Positions 56,429 to 61,734 of a stretch of DNA of 64,000 nucleotides are shown piece by piece. The stretch is from positions 2,108,001-2,172,000 of the forward strand of contig NZ_CP119787.1 of assembly GCF_029338255.1 (NCBI RefSeq), written 5' to 3'. Source of the stretch: Haloarcula halobia (lineage in GTDB: Archaea > Halobacteriota > Halobacteria > Halobacteriales > Haloarculaceae). Within the stretch, counting starts at the first letter, position 1, and every line of letters starts with the position of its first letter. The notes below the pieces were generated by a model. That model saw nothing but the letters and a program-made list of their open reading frames with translations, made no database searches and was not told where the DNA came from. Both the position numbers and the translations under genes were made by a program.

Positions 56429-58189
56429 TTAGAGCATCTCCAGATGGGATTCTTCGAGCGCGAACAGCCCGTTGTCACCGCCGCTGGGGACCATCGGGAA
56501 GACGTTCTCCGCCGGGTCGATGATGGCGTCGATGACCGCGGGGCCGTCGTACTCGCGCGCTGCCTGGATGGTGTCCTCGACGTCGGCTTCGTCCTCGAGG
56601 CGGAACCCGCGGGCGCCGAAGGCCTCGGCGAGCTTGTCGAACTGCGGAATCCACGGGTACTCGGAGGCCATCCGCCGCCCCTCGTAGAAGCCGTCCTGCC
56701 ACTGGCGGACCATCCCGACCGCCTCGTTGTTGAGGACGACGTAGGTGATGTCGAGTTGCTCGCGGACCGCGACGATCAGTTCCTGGACGGTCATCAGGAA
56801 CGAGCCGTCGCCGTCGAAGCAGACCACCTCCTGGTCGGGCGCCGCGAGCTTCGCGCCGATGGCCGCGGGGGCGCCGTAGCCCATCGTCCCCAGGCCGTGC
56901 GAGGAGACCCAGGTCCGGGGCTCGGTGAACTCCCAGAACTGCGAGGCCCACATCTGGTGTTGGCCGACGCCGGTACAGACGATGGTGTCGTCGTCCGTGA
57001 CCTCCGAGAACGTCTCGACGATGTACTGCGGTTTCAGGGGTTCGTCGTCGGGCATCTCGTAGGTCATCGGGTACTCCGATTTCCAGTCCTGACACCGCTC
57101 GCGCCACTCGTCGGCGTCGGGCGCACGCGGCATCGCGTCGTAGAGCTGGCGCAGGACCATCTTGGCGTCGCCGATGAGCGGGTAGTCCGCGTAGATGTTC
57201 TTGCTGATCTCGGCCGGGTCGATGTCGACGTGGATGATCTCGGCGTCGGGCGCGAACGAGTCGACGCCGCCGGTCAGGCGGTCGTCGAACCGCGTCCCGA
57301 TGGCGAGCATGCAGTCGGTGTTCGTGATGGCGAGGTTGGCGTACCCGGTGCCGTGCATCCCGGCCCACTCCAGCGAGAGCTCGTGGTCCTCGGGGAACGA
57401 GCCGATGCCGGGCATCGTCGTGATGACCGGAATCTCGTACTCCGTGGCGAACTCCCGGAGGGCCGGCGAGGCGTCAGCCTTGATCACGCCGCCGCCGGCG
57501 AGGATGACCGGGCGCTCGGCGTCGGCGAGCGCCTCGACTGCCTCCTGGACGTCGGTGTCGTCGGCTTCCTCGGGGACGTCGTAGGTGTCGGGCGTCGTCG
57601 GCGCCATCGGCTCCCGGTCGGTCTCGCCCTGCGTGACGTCTTTCGGGAGGTCGACCAGCGTCGGTCCCTGTCGGCCCGACGCCGCGAGGGCGAACGCCTC
57701 GCTGACGTTGTCGCCGACGGTGTCCGAGTCGCCCGCGAAGTAGCTCTCCTTGGTGATGGGCTGGGTGATGCCGACGGTGTCGGTCTCCTGGAAGGCGTCG
57801 TTGCCGACGAAGTCGGTCGGGACCTGACCCGTGAGCGCGATCATCGGGTCGGAGTCCATGCTGGCGTCGGCGATGCCGGTCACCAGGTTCGTCGCGCCGG
57901 GCCCGGACGTCGCAAAGCAGACGCCGGGGTCGCCGGTCACGACGCCGTAGGCGTCGGCGGCGTGTGAGGCCCCCTGTTCGTGGGCCATCGTCACGTGGGT
58001 GATGTCGGAGTCGTACAGCGCGTCGTAGACGGGCATGATGGCCCCGCCCTGGACGCCGAAGACGTAGTCCGTCCCGGCGTTCTCGAGCGCCCGGATGACC
58101 GACTGGGCCCCCGTGGTTATCGGCTCTCGGTCGTCGTCCTGTTCGGTCTCCGTCTGGTCCTCTTTCGGGACCGATGCGCGTTCACTCAT
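56429..58189 (-). CDS. ilvB: Acetolactate synthase large (catalytic) subunit
   Basis: Thiamine-diphosphate enzyme that makes acetolactate or acetohydroxybutyrate. The 586-residue protein has the catalytic Glu region VTMAHEQGASHAADAYG, FATSGPGATNLVTGIADA, LTGQVPTDFVGNDAFQETD and the cofactor motif CFDGDGSFLMTVQEL...VVLNNEAVGMVRQWQ. After an acidic N-terminal extension the core starts at about residue 25. It is preceded by an AGGAGG ribosome site, unlike the leaderless genes around it, and by a 345-base leader with a candidate regulatory peptide. Confidence 0.96.
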   Translation of the reverse strand: MSERASVPKEDQTETEQDDDREPITTGAQSVIRALENAGTDYVFGVQGGAIMPVYDALYDSDITHVTMAHEQGASHAADAYGVVTGDPGVCFATSGPGATNLVTGIADASMDSDPMIALTGQVPTDFVGNDAFQETDTVGITQPITKESYFAGDSDTVGDNVSEAFALAASGRQGPTLVDLPKDVTQGETDREPMAPTTPDTYDVPEEADDTDVQEAVEALADAERPVILAGGGVIKADASPALREFATEYEIPVITTMPGIGSFPEDHELSLEWAGMHGTGYANLAITNTDCMLAIGTRFDDRLTGGVDSFAPDAEIIHVDIDPAEISKNIYADYPLIGDAKMVLRQLYDAMPRAPDADEWRERCQDWKSEYPMTYEMPDDEPLKPQYIVETFSEVTDDDTIVCTGVGQHQMWASQFWEFTEPRTWVSSHGLGTMGYGAPAAIGAKLAAPDQEVVCFDGDGSFLMTVQELIVAVREQLDITYVVLNNEAVGMVRQWQDGFYEGRRMASEYPWIPQFDKLAEAFGARGFRLEDEADVEDTIQAAREYDGPAVIDAIIDPAENVFPMVPSGGDNGLFALEESHLEML

Positions 58190-58194
58190 AGCTG

Positions 58195-58200
58195 CCTCCT
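58195..58200 (-). promoter_or_regulatory. Shine-Dalgarno site of ilvB
   Basis: AGGAGG five bases before the ilvB ATG. Strong sites like this are unusual in haloarchaea and show that ilvB is translated from an internal position on a leadered transcript. Confidence 0.75.
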
Positions 58201-58288
58201 GTGGGTCGCATCGTCGTGGGTGTGTGCATGGCTGTGTAGTTGGGTGGTAGCGAGTCGGTACGAGCGGCGTCGGATGTGAAGATGTGTG

Positions 58289-58304
58289 GGGGCTAGAAGG
58301 CCCC
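58289..58304 (-). promoter_or_regulatory. Hairpin over the leader-peptide stop codon
   Basis: GGGGC at 58300-58304 (reading as GGGGC on the minus strand) can pair with GCCCC at 58289-58293 around a 6-base loop CTTCTA that contains part of the TAG stop. A ribosome stalled at the upstream Val/Leu/Ile codons would affect its folding. No U-run follows, so it is not a typical intrinsic terminator. Confidence 0.35.
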
Positions 58305-58382
58305 TACGATACCCTCGCCGAGAAGTACGGACGCGCGGCTGGTCGACGGTCGGTCGCGGTGTCCAGCGCGCGCAGTCGTCAC
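58293..58382 (-). CDS. Candidate ilvB leader peptide (29 residues)
   Basis: A GTG at 58382 opens a 30-codon frame that starts MTTARAGHRDR and ends SVLLGEGIVGAF, stop TAG at 58293-58295. The TATA box at 58403-58411 predicts a transcript beginning at or beside this GTG, so it could be translated as a leaderless start. The last dozen codons hold Val, Leu, Leu, then Ile, Val, encoded as GTA CTT CTC and ATC GTA; GTA and CTT are rare in the other genes here. The pattern mimics bacterial amino-acid attenuator leader peptides. Not proven to be translated. Confidence 0.45.
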   Translation of the reverse strand: MTTARAGHRDRPSTSRASVLLGEGIVGAF

Positions 58383-58402
58383 GTACGGAACCAAACCGCC
58401 CC

Positions 58403-58411
58403 GGATAATAA
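58403..58411 (-). promoter_or_regulatory. TATA-like box of the ilvB transcript
   Basis: TTATTATCC on the minus strand, about 25 bases before the GTG at 58382. Confidence 0.5.
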
Positions 58412-58534
58412 GCGTTCTGTGAGAGGATTTGCCGCACGTGGCGGCCCGTGCCGGCCGCTCGGGGGCCGAACCGGTGCCCCGAGACCACGCGTCGCTCGCG
58501 GGGACGAACTGCGACCGGAGACGGGGTCATGGGC

Positions 58535-59756
58535 CTACGCCCGGACCTCCTCTTGCTCCTCGTCGACGCCGAGCTCCTTGGCGAACCGCTCCAGCTCGGT
58601 CATCGTGACCTGCTGTTTCTCCGCGCCGTAGTCTTTGACGCGGCGGGTCACCTCGCGGACCTCGGCATCGGTGGGGGCGTAGCCGGCGTCCTGCAGCCGT
58701 TCGCGCACCGAGTGGGTCCCGGTGTGCTTCCCGAGCACCAGTTCGCGCTCGGAACCCACCATCTCGGGGGTCATCACGCCCGGCTCGAACGTGTCGGAGT
58801 TCTCGATGACGCCGGCGGCGTGGATGCCGCTCTCGTGGGAGAACGCGTTCGAGCCCACGATGGGCTTGTTGGCCGGCACCGGGATGTTGGACTTCTCCTC
58901 GACCATCCGTGACAGCTCGGTGATGCGGGTCGTGTCGATGCCGGTGTCGACGTCGTAGAGTGACTCCAGTGCCATCACGACCTCCTCGTAGGCCGCGTTA
59001 CCGGCCCGTTCGCCGATGCCGTTGACCGACACCTGGGCCTGGCTCGCGCCGGCCTCGAAGCCGGAGATGGCGTTGGCCGACGCGAAGCCGAAGTCGTCGT
59101 GCGTGTGCACGTCGATGCGGGCGTCCGTGTGTGCGTCGACGATCTCGATGAGGTCGTAGAACCGCCGGGGCGTCGCCACGCCGACGGTGTCCGGGATGTT
59201 GATCCAGTCTGCACCCGCCGCGGACGTCTCCTCGATGACCTCGATGAGGAACTCCTCAGAGGTCCGGGTGGCGTCCATCGGCGAGAACATGCACTCGACG
59301 CCGGCCTCCGTGACGCGCTCGATGCACTCGATGGCAGCGTCGAGCGCCTCCTGCCGGGTGGCGTGCATGGAGTCTTGCAACTGTACGTCCGACGTCGAGA
59401 CGAACGTGTGGACCATGTCGACGCCGGAGTCCAGCGCCGCCTCGATGTCTTTCTCGACAACACGTGCCAGTCCGCAGGTCGTCCCCCGGGTGGACTCGGC
59501 GATGTCGCGCACTGCCTCGAACTCCGCGTCGGAGTTGACGGGGAACCCGGCCTCGATGACGTGGGTACCCATCTCGTCCAGCAGCGCGGCTATCTCGCGT
59601 TTGTCCTCGTAGTTGAACGACGTGCGTGGCGACTGTTCACCGTCGCGCAGCGTGGTGTCGAAAATGCGTGCGTCTGTTATCTCAGACGTGGAATCCAGTG
59701 TGCCCTGGAAGAACTCGATCCGCCGGAGAATCCGACGTGCCCTCGTTGTTGGACAT
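58535..59756 (-). CDS. leuA: 2-isopropylmalate synthase (or citramalate synthase) with an apparent +1 frameshift near the N-terminus
   Basis: Claisen-type condensing enzyme that commits carbon to leucine (or isoleucine via citramalate). From the ATG at 59756 the frame reads MSNNEGTSDSP and then hits a stop after about 24 codons. The rest, RIEFFQGTLDSTSEITDARIFDTTLRDGEQSPRTSF through MGTHVIEAGFPVNSD to the end, lies in the next frame, including the catalytic DTTLRDGEQSP and HTHDDFGFA. The shift occurs near 59720-59732 (CCGGCGG on the minus strand); one base fewer gives a 406-residue protein. A downstream ATG at 59572 would omit the catalytic motif. No C-terminal regulatory domain is present, as expected for this archaeal group. 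Confidence 0.9.
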
Positions 59757-59784
59757 AATCACTTCTACCTGGACGCTTCCGGTA

Positions 59785-59791
59785 CTTATAG
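59785..59791 (-). promoter_or_regulatory. TATA box of leuA
   Basis: CTATAAG on the minus strand, about 30 bases before the ATG at 59756, which supports that ATG as the real start of the frameshifted leuA. Confidence 0.65.
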
Positions 59792-59919
59792 TTGTCCGTT
59801 GCGGCCCCCGCCGTCTGACACCGGCGTAGCCGGCGCCCGTCGGTCGGATTCGCACACGTACCCCACGACTACCGACGGGGAGAAGAACTACTTAGTGGCA
59901 CCACGGAGTCGTCCCACCA

Positions 59920-61734
59920 ATGAGCGATATCGACAGGACTGACAGCGACGAATCGCTGCGCGAGGCCGTCGAGCGGTCCCGGAGCGGCGCACCCGCCGTC
60001 GGCAGCGTCGTCAGGGACCGGTTCTCCTCGGACGAGGTCTTCCAGCGCATCGTCGCCGCGGCGGACGAGGAGATAACGTCGGGCTCTCGGGAGCTGTTCT
60101 TCAGTGCCCTCGCGGCCGGGTTCGCCATCACCATCACCTTCATGCTCTACGTCTCGATGAAGACCTCGACCGGATCGGACCCGGTCCTGAGCGCGATGCT
60201 GTACCCGCTGGGGTTCATCTACATCATCATCGGCGGCTACCAGCTGTACACGGAGAACACGCTGCCGCCCGTGGCGCTGACGCTCGAGCGCCTGGCCAGC
60301 GTTCCGGCGCTCCTGCGCAACTGGGTCGTCGTCCTGACGGGGAACTTCACCGGCGGCGCGATGGGGGCCGCCGCGCTCGCGTTCGGCGGCGTCCTCTCCC
60401 CGGAGGCCGCGACGGTCGCGGCCGCCATCGCACGCGAGGGGGTCGACACCGCCTGGTGGAGCCTGTTCAGCAAGGCCGCCTTCGCCGGGCTCATCGTCGC
60501 CGGCGTCGTCTGGGTGGAGTACGCCGCCCGGGACACCATTTCACGCCTCGTGGTGGTCTACCTGGCCTTCCTCGCGATTCCGCTAGGGGGGCTGTACCAC
60601 TCGGTCGTCTCCTTCACCGAGATGATCTACCTGGTGTTGCACGGCGACATCGCGCTCGGAGTGGGCCTCGCGGAGTTCGTCCTCCCGGTGTTGCTCGGCA
60701 ACACCGTCGGCGGCGTCGTGCTCGTGACCGTGGTCAACTACTTCCAGACGACCGAGGAGCGCCTCGCGTCGGCCCGGTTCGAGGGTGCGGAACGACAGCT
60801 CTCGATACCGGAGTGGACGCTCGGGAGCCTCGCCGGGCGTTCCTACGTGCCGCTGCTCGACGAGGAGGATGCCCCGGCCGTGGCCGACGACGACGGGTAC
60901 CGGATTCTCGTCCCCATCCTGAACCCGCGGACCGAAGGCGACCTGGTCCGGTTGGCCTGTCTGCTGGGGAGCGACCGGCCGGACGCGGTCGTCTCCCCGG
61001 TCCACATCGTCCAGACGCCCACCGGTCGGCGGGGATACGGCTCGTCGGAGCGCAAGCAGATCGTCGACGAGTCGAACAGGCTGATGGCGGACCTGGCTGA
61101 CGTCGCCGCCGACTACGACGTCGACTACGAGAGCGCCACGGTCGTCTCCCAGCGCTCGTTCGAGGCACTCTTCGAAGTCGCCCGCCGGAACCAGGCTGAC
61201 CTGGTCGTGATGCAGTGGGACGACGACCGGGTGTGGGGTGCCGCGAGGGCCTCCCGGTCGCTCAGCGACCTGACTCGCGAACTCCCCTGTGACTTCCTCG
61301 TCCTCAAGAACCGCGGGTTCGACCCCTCGCGCATCCTGCTGCCGATCGAAGCCGGGCGAAACTGCGAGCTGAGCGCGCAAGTCGGGCGCACGCTCCGGTC
61401 GGTGGCCGGCGCCGACCTCTCGCTGTTGCACGTCGTCGACGGTCCCGACGAACGCGAGGCGGGGGAGGCGTTCCTCGAACGCTGGGCGCGCGAGCATGAC
61501 ATCGAGGACGCGACGCGAACGGTCGACGACTCGGGCGACGTGGAGACGGCCATCGCCCGCGAGGCCCGCTCGCGCTCGCTCGTCATCGTCGGGGCGACCG
61601 AGCGGGGGCTCCTCACGCGTCTCGTCCACGATTCGCTGAACCTCTCGGTCGTCGACGACCTCGAGTGTTCGGTGTTGCTCACCGAGCGGGCGACGCCCCG
61701 GTCGCTCACCGAGCGGCTGTTCGGCCGGCGCTGA
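59920..61734 (+). CDS. Formate/nitrite transporter-like channel fused to two universal stress domains
   Basis: A 604-residue fusion. Residues about 55-285 form an FNT-type membrane domain with six helices (LFFSALAAGFAITITFMLYVSM, NWVVVLTGNFTGGAMGAAAL, LPVLLGNTVGGVVLVTVVNYF), including the GNFTGG and GNTVGG half-helix motifs that line the FNT pore. Residues about 326-455 and 467-595 are two Usp domains (YRILVPILNP, DPSRILLPIEAG, LVIVGATERGLLTRLVHD). The soluble domains may gate a small-anion channel in response to nucleotides or stress. An acidic N-terminal region (SDIDRTDSDESLREAV) precedes the first helix. Divergent from leuA. Confidence 0.88.
   Translation: MSDIDRTDSDESLREAVERSRSGAPAVGSVVRDRFSSDEVFQRIVAAADEEITSGSRELFFSALAAGFAITITFMLYVSMKTSTGSDPVLSAMLYPLGFIYIIIGGYQLYTENTLPPVALTLERLASVPALLRNWVVVLTGNFTGGAMGAAALAFGGVLSPEAATVAAAIAREGVDTAWWSLFSKAAFAGLIVAGVVWVEYAARDTISRLVVVYLAFLAIPLGGLYHSVVSFTEMIYLVLHGDIALGVGLAEFVLPVLLGNTVGGVVLVTVVNYFQTTEERLASARFEGAERQLSIPEWTLGSLAGRSYVPLLDEEDAPAVADDDGYRILVPILNPRTEGDLVRLACLLGSDRPDAVVSPVHIVQTPTGRRGYGSSERKQIVDESNRLMADLADVAADYDVDYESATVVSQRSFEALFEVARRNQADLVVMQWDDDRVWGAARASRSLSDLTRELPCDFLVLKNRGFDPSRILLPIEAGRNCELSAQVGRTLRSVAGADLSLLHVVDGPDEREAGEAFLERWAREHDIEDATRTVDDSGDVETAIAREARSRSLVIVGATERGLLTRLVHDSLNLSVVDDLECSVLLTERATPRSLTERLFGRR

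Follow-up and report, generated by a model that had tools for sequence, protein, structure and literature searches.

What does the short segment between leuA and ilvB do in Haloarcula halobia, and might it let the ilvBNC-leuCDB operon respond to the amino acids that it makes? An earlier note on the window (the whole 64,000-nucleotide stretch analyzed here) had proposed that the ilvB transcript opens with an amino-acid-sensing leader peptide. All of the features concerned lie on the minus strand. Downstream of ilvB the gene order is ilvN, ilvC, leuC, leuD, leuB; Pfam was run for ilvB, ilvN, and ilvC, and leuC, leuD, and leuB were named from their translations.

58535..59722, minus strand: leuA, the upstream gene, proposed to be coupled to orfX
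58186..58530, minus strand: orfX, a relay frame from the leuA stop codon to the ATGA over the ilvB start (frame conservation across loci)
58405..58411, minus strand: TATA box TTATTAT of an internal promoter (logo over 168 loci)
58293..58382, minus strand: uORF1, the leader peptide frame, with a GTG start and 29 codons (frame conserved in 168 loci and 77 named genomes)
58305..58310, minus strand: ATC (Ile) and GTA (Val), the proposed regulatory codons, adjoining the hairpin (GTA in 168/168 loci, Ile codon in 163/168)
58289..58304, minus strand: hairpin GGGGC-CTTCTA-GCCCC, which holds the uORF1 stop codon (stem of 5 to 11 bp in 168/168 loci)
58272..58288, minus strand: G-poor pyrimidine tract 3′ of the hairpin, a candidate termination region (base composition over 168 loci)
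58195..58200, minus strand: Shine-Dalgarno-like AGGAGG of ilvB (read from the sequence; not kept in all relatives)
56429..58189, minus strand: ilvB, acetolactate synthase large subunit, with its ATG at 58189, proposed as the first controlled gene (Pfam)
56426-55827, minus strand: ilvN, downstream of ilvB (Pfam)

The internal promoter, uORF1 (in a different frame), and the hairpin all lie inside orfX. The TATA box (58411-58405) is 29 nt upstream of the uORF1 GTG (58382-58380), and uORF1 ends V-L-L-G-E-G-I-V-G-A-F before a TAG at 58295-58293. In the hairpin, GGGGC (58304-58300) pairs with GCCCC (58293-58289) around the loop CTTCTA.

We located ilvB in 146 genomes from within the family and in 194 from the class and read the upstream DNA for a broad sample; the first-round set comprised 168 analyzable ilvB loci from the class Halobacteria, with L052 and L061 excluded. 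The leader was present in all 168 loci, in 16 of 18 further, more divergent genomes, and in all 77 loci with enough flank in a second collection of named organisms, among them species of Haloferax, Halorubrum, Natrinema, Halobellus, Haloquadratum, and Halalkalicoccus. Comparison thus shows conservation of both frames, the terminal codons, the hairpin, the promoter, and the pyrimidine tract. Of the two divergent genomes without a leader, one (L189) does not have ilvB closely behind leuA, and the other (L200, genome G164) is small and has leuA overlapping ilvB directly by ATGA, possibly an older layout that preceded insertion of the leader. Outside the class, the motif occurred at chance level only, with 2 matching genomes outside the order among about 220 in a phylum search, versus 7 with control matches. 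A search of positions 58000-60000 against Rfam (ilvB motifs, T-box, and riboswitches) returned no match up to E = 1.

Across the 168 loci, uORF1 is 18 to 42 codons long, with a TATA box some 32 nt ahead of its start, and a logo places TTAT at −32 to −29 (TATA at −32 to −27) and a BRE-like AA at −37/−36. When the start codon nearest to TATA+32 was chosen regardless of frame, it was in frame with the conserved Val codon in 168/168 loci, compared with one-third expected, and the frame is therefore not random. The start codon is ATG at 163 loci and GTG at 5, including the window's own; the ATG of relatives sits one codon downstream of the window GTG, at a codon that is ACG here. Given this TATA spacing and the finding that 72% of Haloferax volcanii transcripts are leaderless (PMC4983044), we infer that translation of uORF1 would begin at or near the first base of its transcript. 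The conserved frame, start codon, and promoter spacing support uORF1 as a translated frame, translation itself being inferred. The peptide preceding the last codons varies among loci, and the 60 nt of uORF1 that precede GTA gave no significant signal in a coding test (z of 0.3 to 0.6), which suggests that only the last codons and the frame of uORF1 are under selection. Some Natrialbaceae-like loci lack a stop codon in the loop, and their uORF1 ends four codons later. Two second copies of ilvB (L063 and L065), which are not behind leuA, keep uORF1 and the hairpin without a relay frame across the leader; this variant ends V-F-V-G-A-A-stop, with Phe replacing Ile, and has its hairpin.

The conserved end of the peptide reads I-V-G-[A/V]-(x)-stop, with I-V-G-[A/V] as the sole invariant peptide part. 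Its Val codon is GTA without exception, and the codon before it is Ile in 163 of the 168 loci, written ATT (132) or ATC (31), so that only T or C stands at the wobble position. The codon after GTA is GGG in 166/168 loci, followed by GCN in 153 (with all four wobble bases) or GTN in 14, and the uORF1 stop remains a stop whichever codon is used (TAG in 148, TAA in 15, and TGA in 5). GTA is invariant although its GT is unpaired in most stems, which favors selection on the codon and disfavors a nascent-peptide sensor. In six genes of the window, 5 of 228 Val codons are GTA (2.2%), Leu is never encoded by CTT (0 of 176), and 7.9% of Ile codons are ATT. I/L/V account for 37.5% of the ten codons ahead of the leader GTA, versus 21.5% in window genes, Leu codons being enriched but not fixed, though the operon also makes leucine. 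One feature expected of a bacterial-type attenuator, codons for end products at the control point, is met by the Ile-Val pair at the hairpin in those 163 loci. Several claims of the earlier note can be judged here. The 29-codon frame opened by GTG and the rarity of GTA and CTT, checked in the six window genes, both held. The claim that the terminal residues V, L, and I are exactly the products of the operon held in part: the I-V-G-A-(x)-stop ending and GTA are conserved, leucine is only enriched, and neither V-L-L nor the CTT of the window leader is conserved in relatives. The note had also proposed comparing the frame, the V/L/I codons, and the hairpin across haloarchaea. That comparison was passed throughout the class for the frame, the Ile/Val codons, GTA, the hairpin, and the leaderless promoter spacing.

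A GC stem spanning the stop codon at 58289-58304, also claimed previously, was confirmed, and its counterparts begin at or just after the GTA codon at the end of uORF1 in all 168 loci. Both arms have changed in variants such as GGGCC/GGCCC, CGGGCC/GGCCCG, and GGGGT/ACCCC, yet the stem still pairs. The hairpin is placed where a halted ribosome would block RNA folding, a second feature expected of a bacterial-type attenuator. In the tract 3′ of the stem, G is mostly at 0 to 4% over the first 14 nt and T is enriched at +12 to +14, reaching 55 to 61% at +12/+13 (168 loci). A run of three or more T residues occurs there in 89/168 loci, compared with 7 and 2 in control segments from the 5′ part of uORF1 and from before ilvB, respectively; some genomes, including those of Haloferax, have only a weak U tract. 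Termination sites in H. volcanii have T stretches that end at a C, and many of these sites are preceded by hairpins; for one hairpin, 59% termination was measured in vivo (PMC7237163). The leader hairpin and tract are similar to such sites, from which termination is inferred. Clade foldings revealed no mutually exclusive or conserved alternative pairing that could act as an antiterminator, only a separate upstream stem, and we therefore do not file the leader as a classical two-state attenuator. Sequestration of the ribosome binding site was also considered and was rejected, as the clade foldings showed no conserved structure over the ilvB start. As a separate observation, aligned clades share a second stem within uORF1 (58316-58382), upstream of the Ile-Val codons, the 5′ arm of which includes the start codon region in some clades.

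The earlier note missed orfX, the overlapping frame that bridges the leuA-ilvB junction. Between the uORF1 stop and the ilvB start lie anywhere from 67 to 205 nt, but the length of this spacer is 1 modulo 3 in 146/168 loci, and the orfX frame, one base off uORF1 in a fixed phase, ends over the ilvB start in 160/168 (ATGA in 144, +8 in 14, and +1 in 2). The other two spacer frames stop earlier in 97 and 56 loci, and stop codons are 6 to 10 times rarer in the orfX frame than in these frames. Among phase-0 loci, the second ilvB codon is AGT in 14/20, restoring a stop at +8, versus 11/146 among phase-1 loci; in six other loci (L053, L054, L113, L123, L146, and L156), the frame stops at or beside an inner ATG. 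The phase is kept in 21 of 23 representatives of dissimilar sequence. At its other end, orfX begins with an ATG placed between −4 and +9 nt relative to the leuA stop; this holds for most of the 166 loci with leuA upstream and for 75/77 named loci. Having this start of its own accounts for the fixed phase of orfX. Amino acid conservation of orfX was not significant in a column-permutation test (z of 0.4 to 1.7 on larger samples), and orfX had no Pfam match. Comparison thus shows a frame kept open across variable lengths rather than a conserved protein. The simplest reading, inferred from sequence alone, is that orfX keeps ribosomes moving from leuA to ilvB. The claim that ilvB needs an internal AGGAGG held only in part, since AGGAGG is present here but many relatives have no Shine-Dalgarno sequence before ilvB, and the stops of orfX and of a second mini-ORF, uORF2, overlap the ilvB start. 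This uORF2 is MHTPTTMRPTGGSYE here (58229-58182); most relatives have one, beginning 53 to 150 nt beyond the stop codon of uORF1, and the peptides contain many H/T/R/P residues but few I/L/V.

Our best reading, to which we assign a probability of roughly 0.6, is that the leader is an Ile/Val-sensing, translation-coupled attenuator of ilvBNC-leuCDB whose output is early transcription termination; translation, sensing, regulation, and termination are all inferred. The internal promoter would yield a leaderless transcript beginning at the leader start codon, and ribosomes would translate uORF1 as far as its end, where Ile (ATT/ATC) and the rare Val codon GTA adjoin the hairpin. Were charged Ile- or Val-tRNA scarce, the ribosome would halt with the 5′ arm covered, the hairpin would be kept open, and RNA polymerase would proceed into ilvBNC-leuCDB. 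Were they plentiful, the ribosome would reach the stop codon within the hairpin and leave, and the hairpin would close before the G-poor, U-rich tract, ending transcription early, probably with FttA/aCPSF1, whose involvement is likewise inferred. A ribosome with the Ile or Val codon in its A site would cover the 5′ arm, so the invariant codons are placed where halting would matter. We consider early termination the likely output because a pyrimidine tract follows the hairpin, because no structure reaches the ilvB start, and because loss of ribosome coupling is the proposed trigger for archaeal FttA/aCPSF1 (PMC8116511, PMC11616081). Transcripts reading through from leuA would bypass the attenuator, since ribosomes coming off leuA would cross this region in the orfX frame instead of that of uORF1 and would stop translating at the start codon of ilvB. 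The suggestion in the earlier note that ribosomes on the leader control access to ilvB or transcription past the leader fits this anatomy, and nothing contradicts it, with sensing and regulation remaining inferences.

A bolder reading, which we would as readily doubt as defend, is that the leader is the first archaeal attenuator of the amino-acid-sensing leader-peptide kind and was inherited from an ancestor of nearly all Halobacteria. It would act on a leaderless transcript with factor-dependent termination and be nested in an overlapping relay frame through which ribosomes from leuA can override it. If so, one stretch of RNA would be read in two frames with opposite regulatory meanings, set by the promoter from which the transcript came.

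The main rival, which remains possible, retains the same sensing leader but makes translation or mRNA stability its output, without early termination of transcription. The position of the ribosome at the hairpin would decide access to uORF2 and ilvB, or the naked RNA would be cleaved. In its favor, the stops of uORF2 and orfX over the ilvB start mean that translational coupling is built in, and a strong U run is absent in some genomes. Against it, there is no conserved structure that would sequester the ilvB start, the length of the spacer ranges from 67 to 205 nt, and a pyrimidine tract directly follows the hairpin.

The remaining alternatives fare much worse. An arrest peptide, in which a nascent chain ending I-V-G-A would sense free amino acids in the ribosome tunnel, could draw on I-V-G-[A/V] being the only invariant peptide part; it is very unlikely, since the invariance of GTA is at the codon level, which an arrest peptide does not require, and the preceding peptide is variable. 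A programmed frameshift (−1 or +2) from uORF1 into the orfX frame at hungry Ile/Val codons, reaching ilvB, was favored early, as the −1 frame is open to the ilvB start after the hairpin and its phase to uORF1 is fixed. It ceased to be our main reading once that frame proved to have a start codon of its own at the leuA stop, as it does in nearly all genomes, and no canonical slippery site was found; we now regard it as highly improbable. It is also very improbable that uORF1 is a by-product, with selection only on orfX (motif YCRGxxAP) and the hairpin. Since uORF1 and orfX overlap and share phase, some of the multiples-of-three spacing does follow from orfX alone. However, orfX lacks amino acid conservation or a Pfam match, L063 and L065 keep uORF1 and the hairpin with neither leuA nor orfX across the leader, and stop-codon interchange and wobble track the uORF1 frame. 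Finally, the palindrome GTAGGGGC-N6-GCCCCTAC lies downstream of a promoter as a repressor's DNA operator might, but this was rejected as very unlikely, given that the window copy is the genome's best match with no better second copy, that other near-matches fall below a reversed-pattern control, and that an operator leaves the in-frame stop (TAG, TAA, or TGA) and codon wobble conservation unexplained.

The attenuator reading has its closest likeness in the ilvBNC attenuator of Corynebacterium (the uORF of the ilvB-II motif). There, too, a short uORF rich in Ile/Leu/Val codons, whose length varies in multiples of three, sits some 150 nt ahead of ilvB and adjoins hairpins (PMC10272879). That system differs in being bacterial, with an intrinsic terminator carrying a U run and an antiterminator, of which none was found in the haloarchaeal leader, and it lacks any counterpart of orfX, the overlapping relay frame that leads in from the gene upstream. 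In Escherichia coli, ilvB is preceded by IvbL, a leader peptide with many branched-chain residues. There the regulatory codons form a run and the terminator is Rho-independent, whereas the haloarchaeal leader has two key codons and leaderless initiation. The Staphylococcus aureus attenuator peptide likewise belongs to a leader controlling an ilv-leu operon, but it is bacterial and Leu-rich, with a classical terminator (PMC5794164). For Archaea, no transcription attenuation or antitermination was known according to a 2021 study (PMC8448881), and no later archaeal leader peptide was found in the open literature searched, subscription papers being outside our scope; the earlier note knew of no established archaeal ilv leader peptide. 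Factor-dependent termination by FttA/aCPSF1, hypothesized to be excluded by a coupled ribosome (PMC8116511, PMC11616081), is the output step proposed here, and those papers describe no leader-controlled case. The element is class-wide and present in genetically tractable Haloferax species, and it makes testable both a regulatory use of archaeal ribosome-RNA polymerase coupling and the action of FttA/aCPSF1 upon coupling loss. A further unusual device is orfX, a frame apparently kept open for passage and not for its product.

A separate observation concerns the 5′ end of leuA (59682-59756, minus strand; also L201-L280), where there may be a start-codon anomaly. The leuA start codon has been described as an open problem for which slippage may be needed, with speculation about leucine dependence (PMC8305020). 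In 48 of 78 named genomes, the LeuA frame has no ATG, GTG, or TTG between the conserved N-terminus and the first upstream stop. An ATG lies 31 to 43 nt upstream in a displaced frame in all 78, always with an offset of 1 and with spacing that varies by threes. This ATG opens a short peptide (MSNNEGTSDSPADRVLPGHTGFHV here), and where its frame overlaps leuA, nearly all of the genomes share the same 11-nt block, TCGAGTTCTTC. The arrangement resembles a +1 programmed frameshift, perhaps from CUU to UUC at the rare Leu codon at 59711-59709, a possibility that we infer from sequence.
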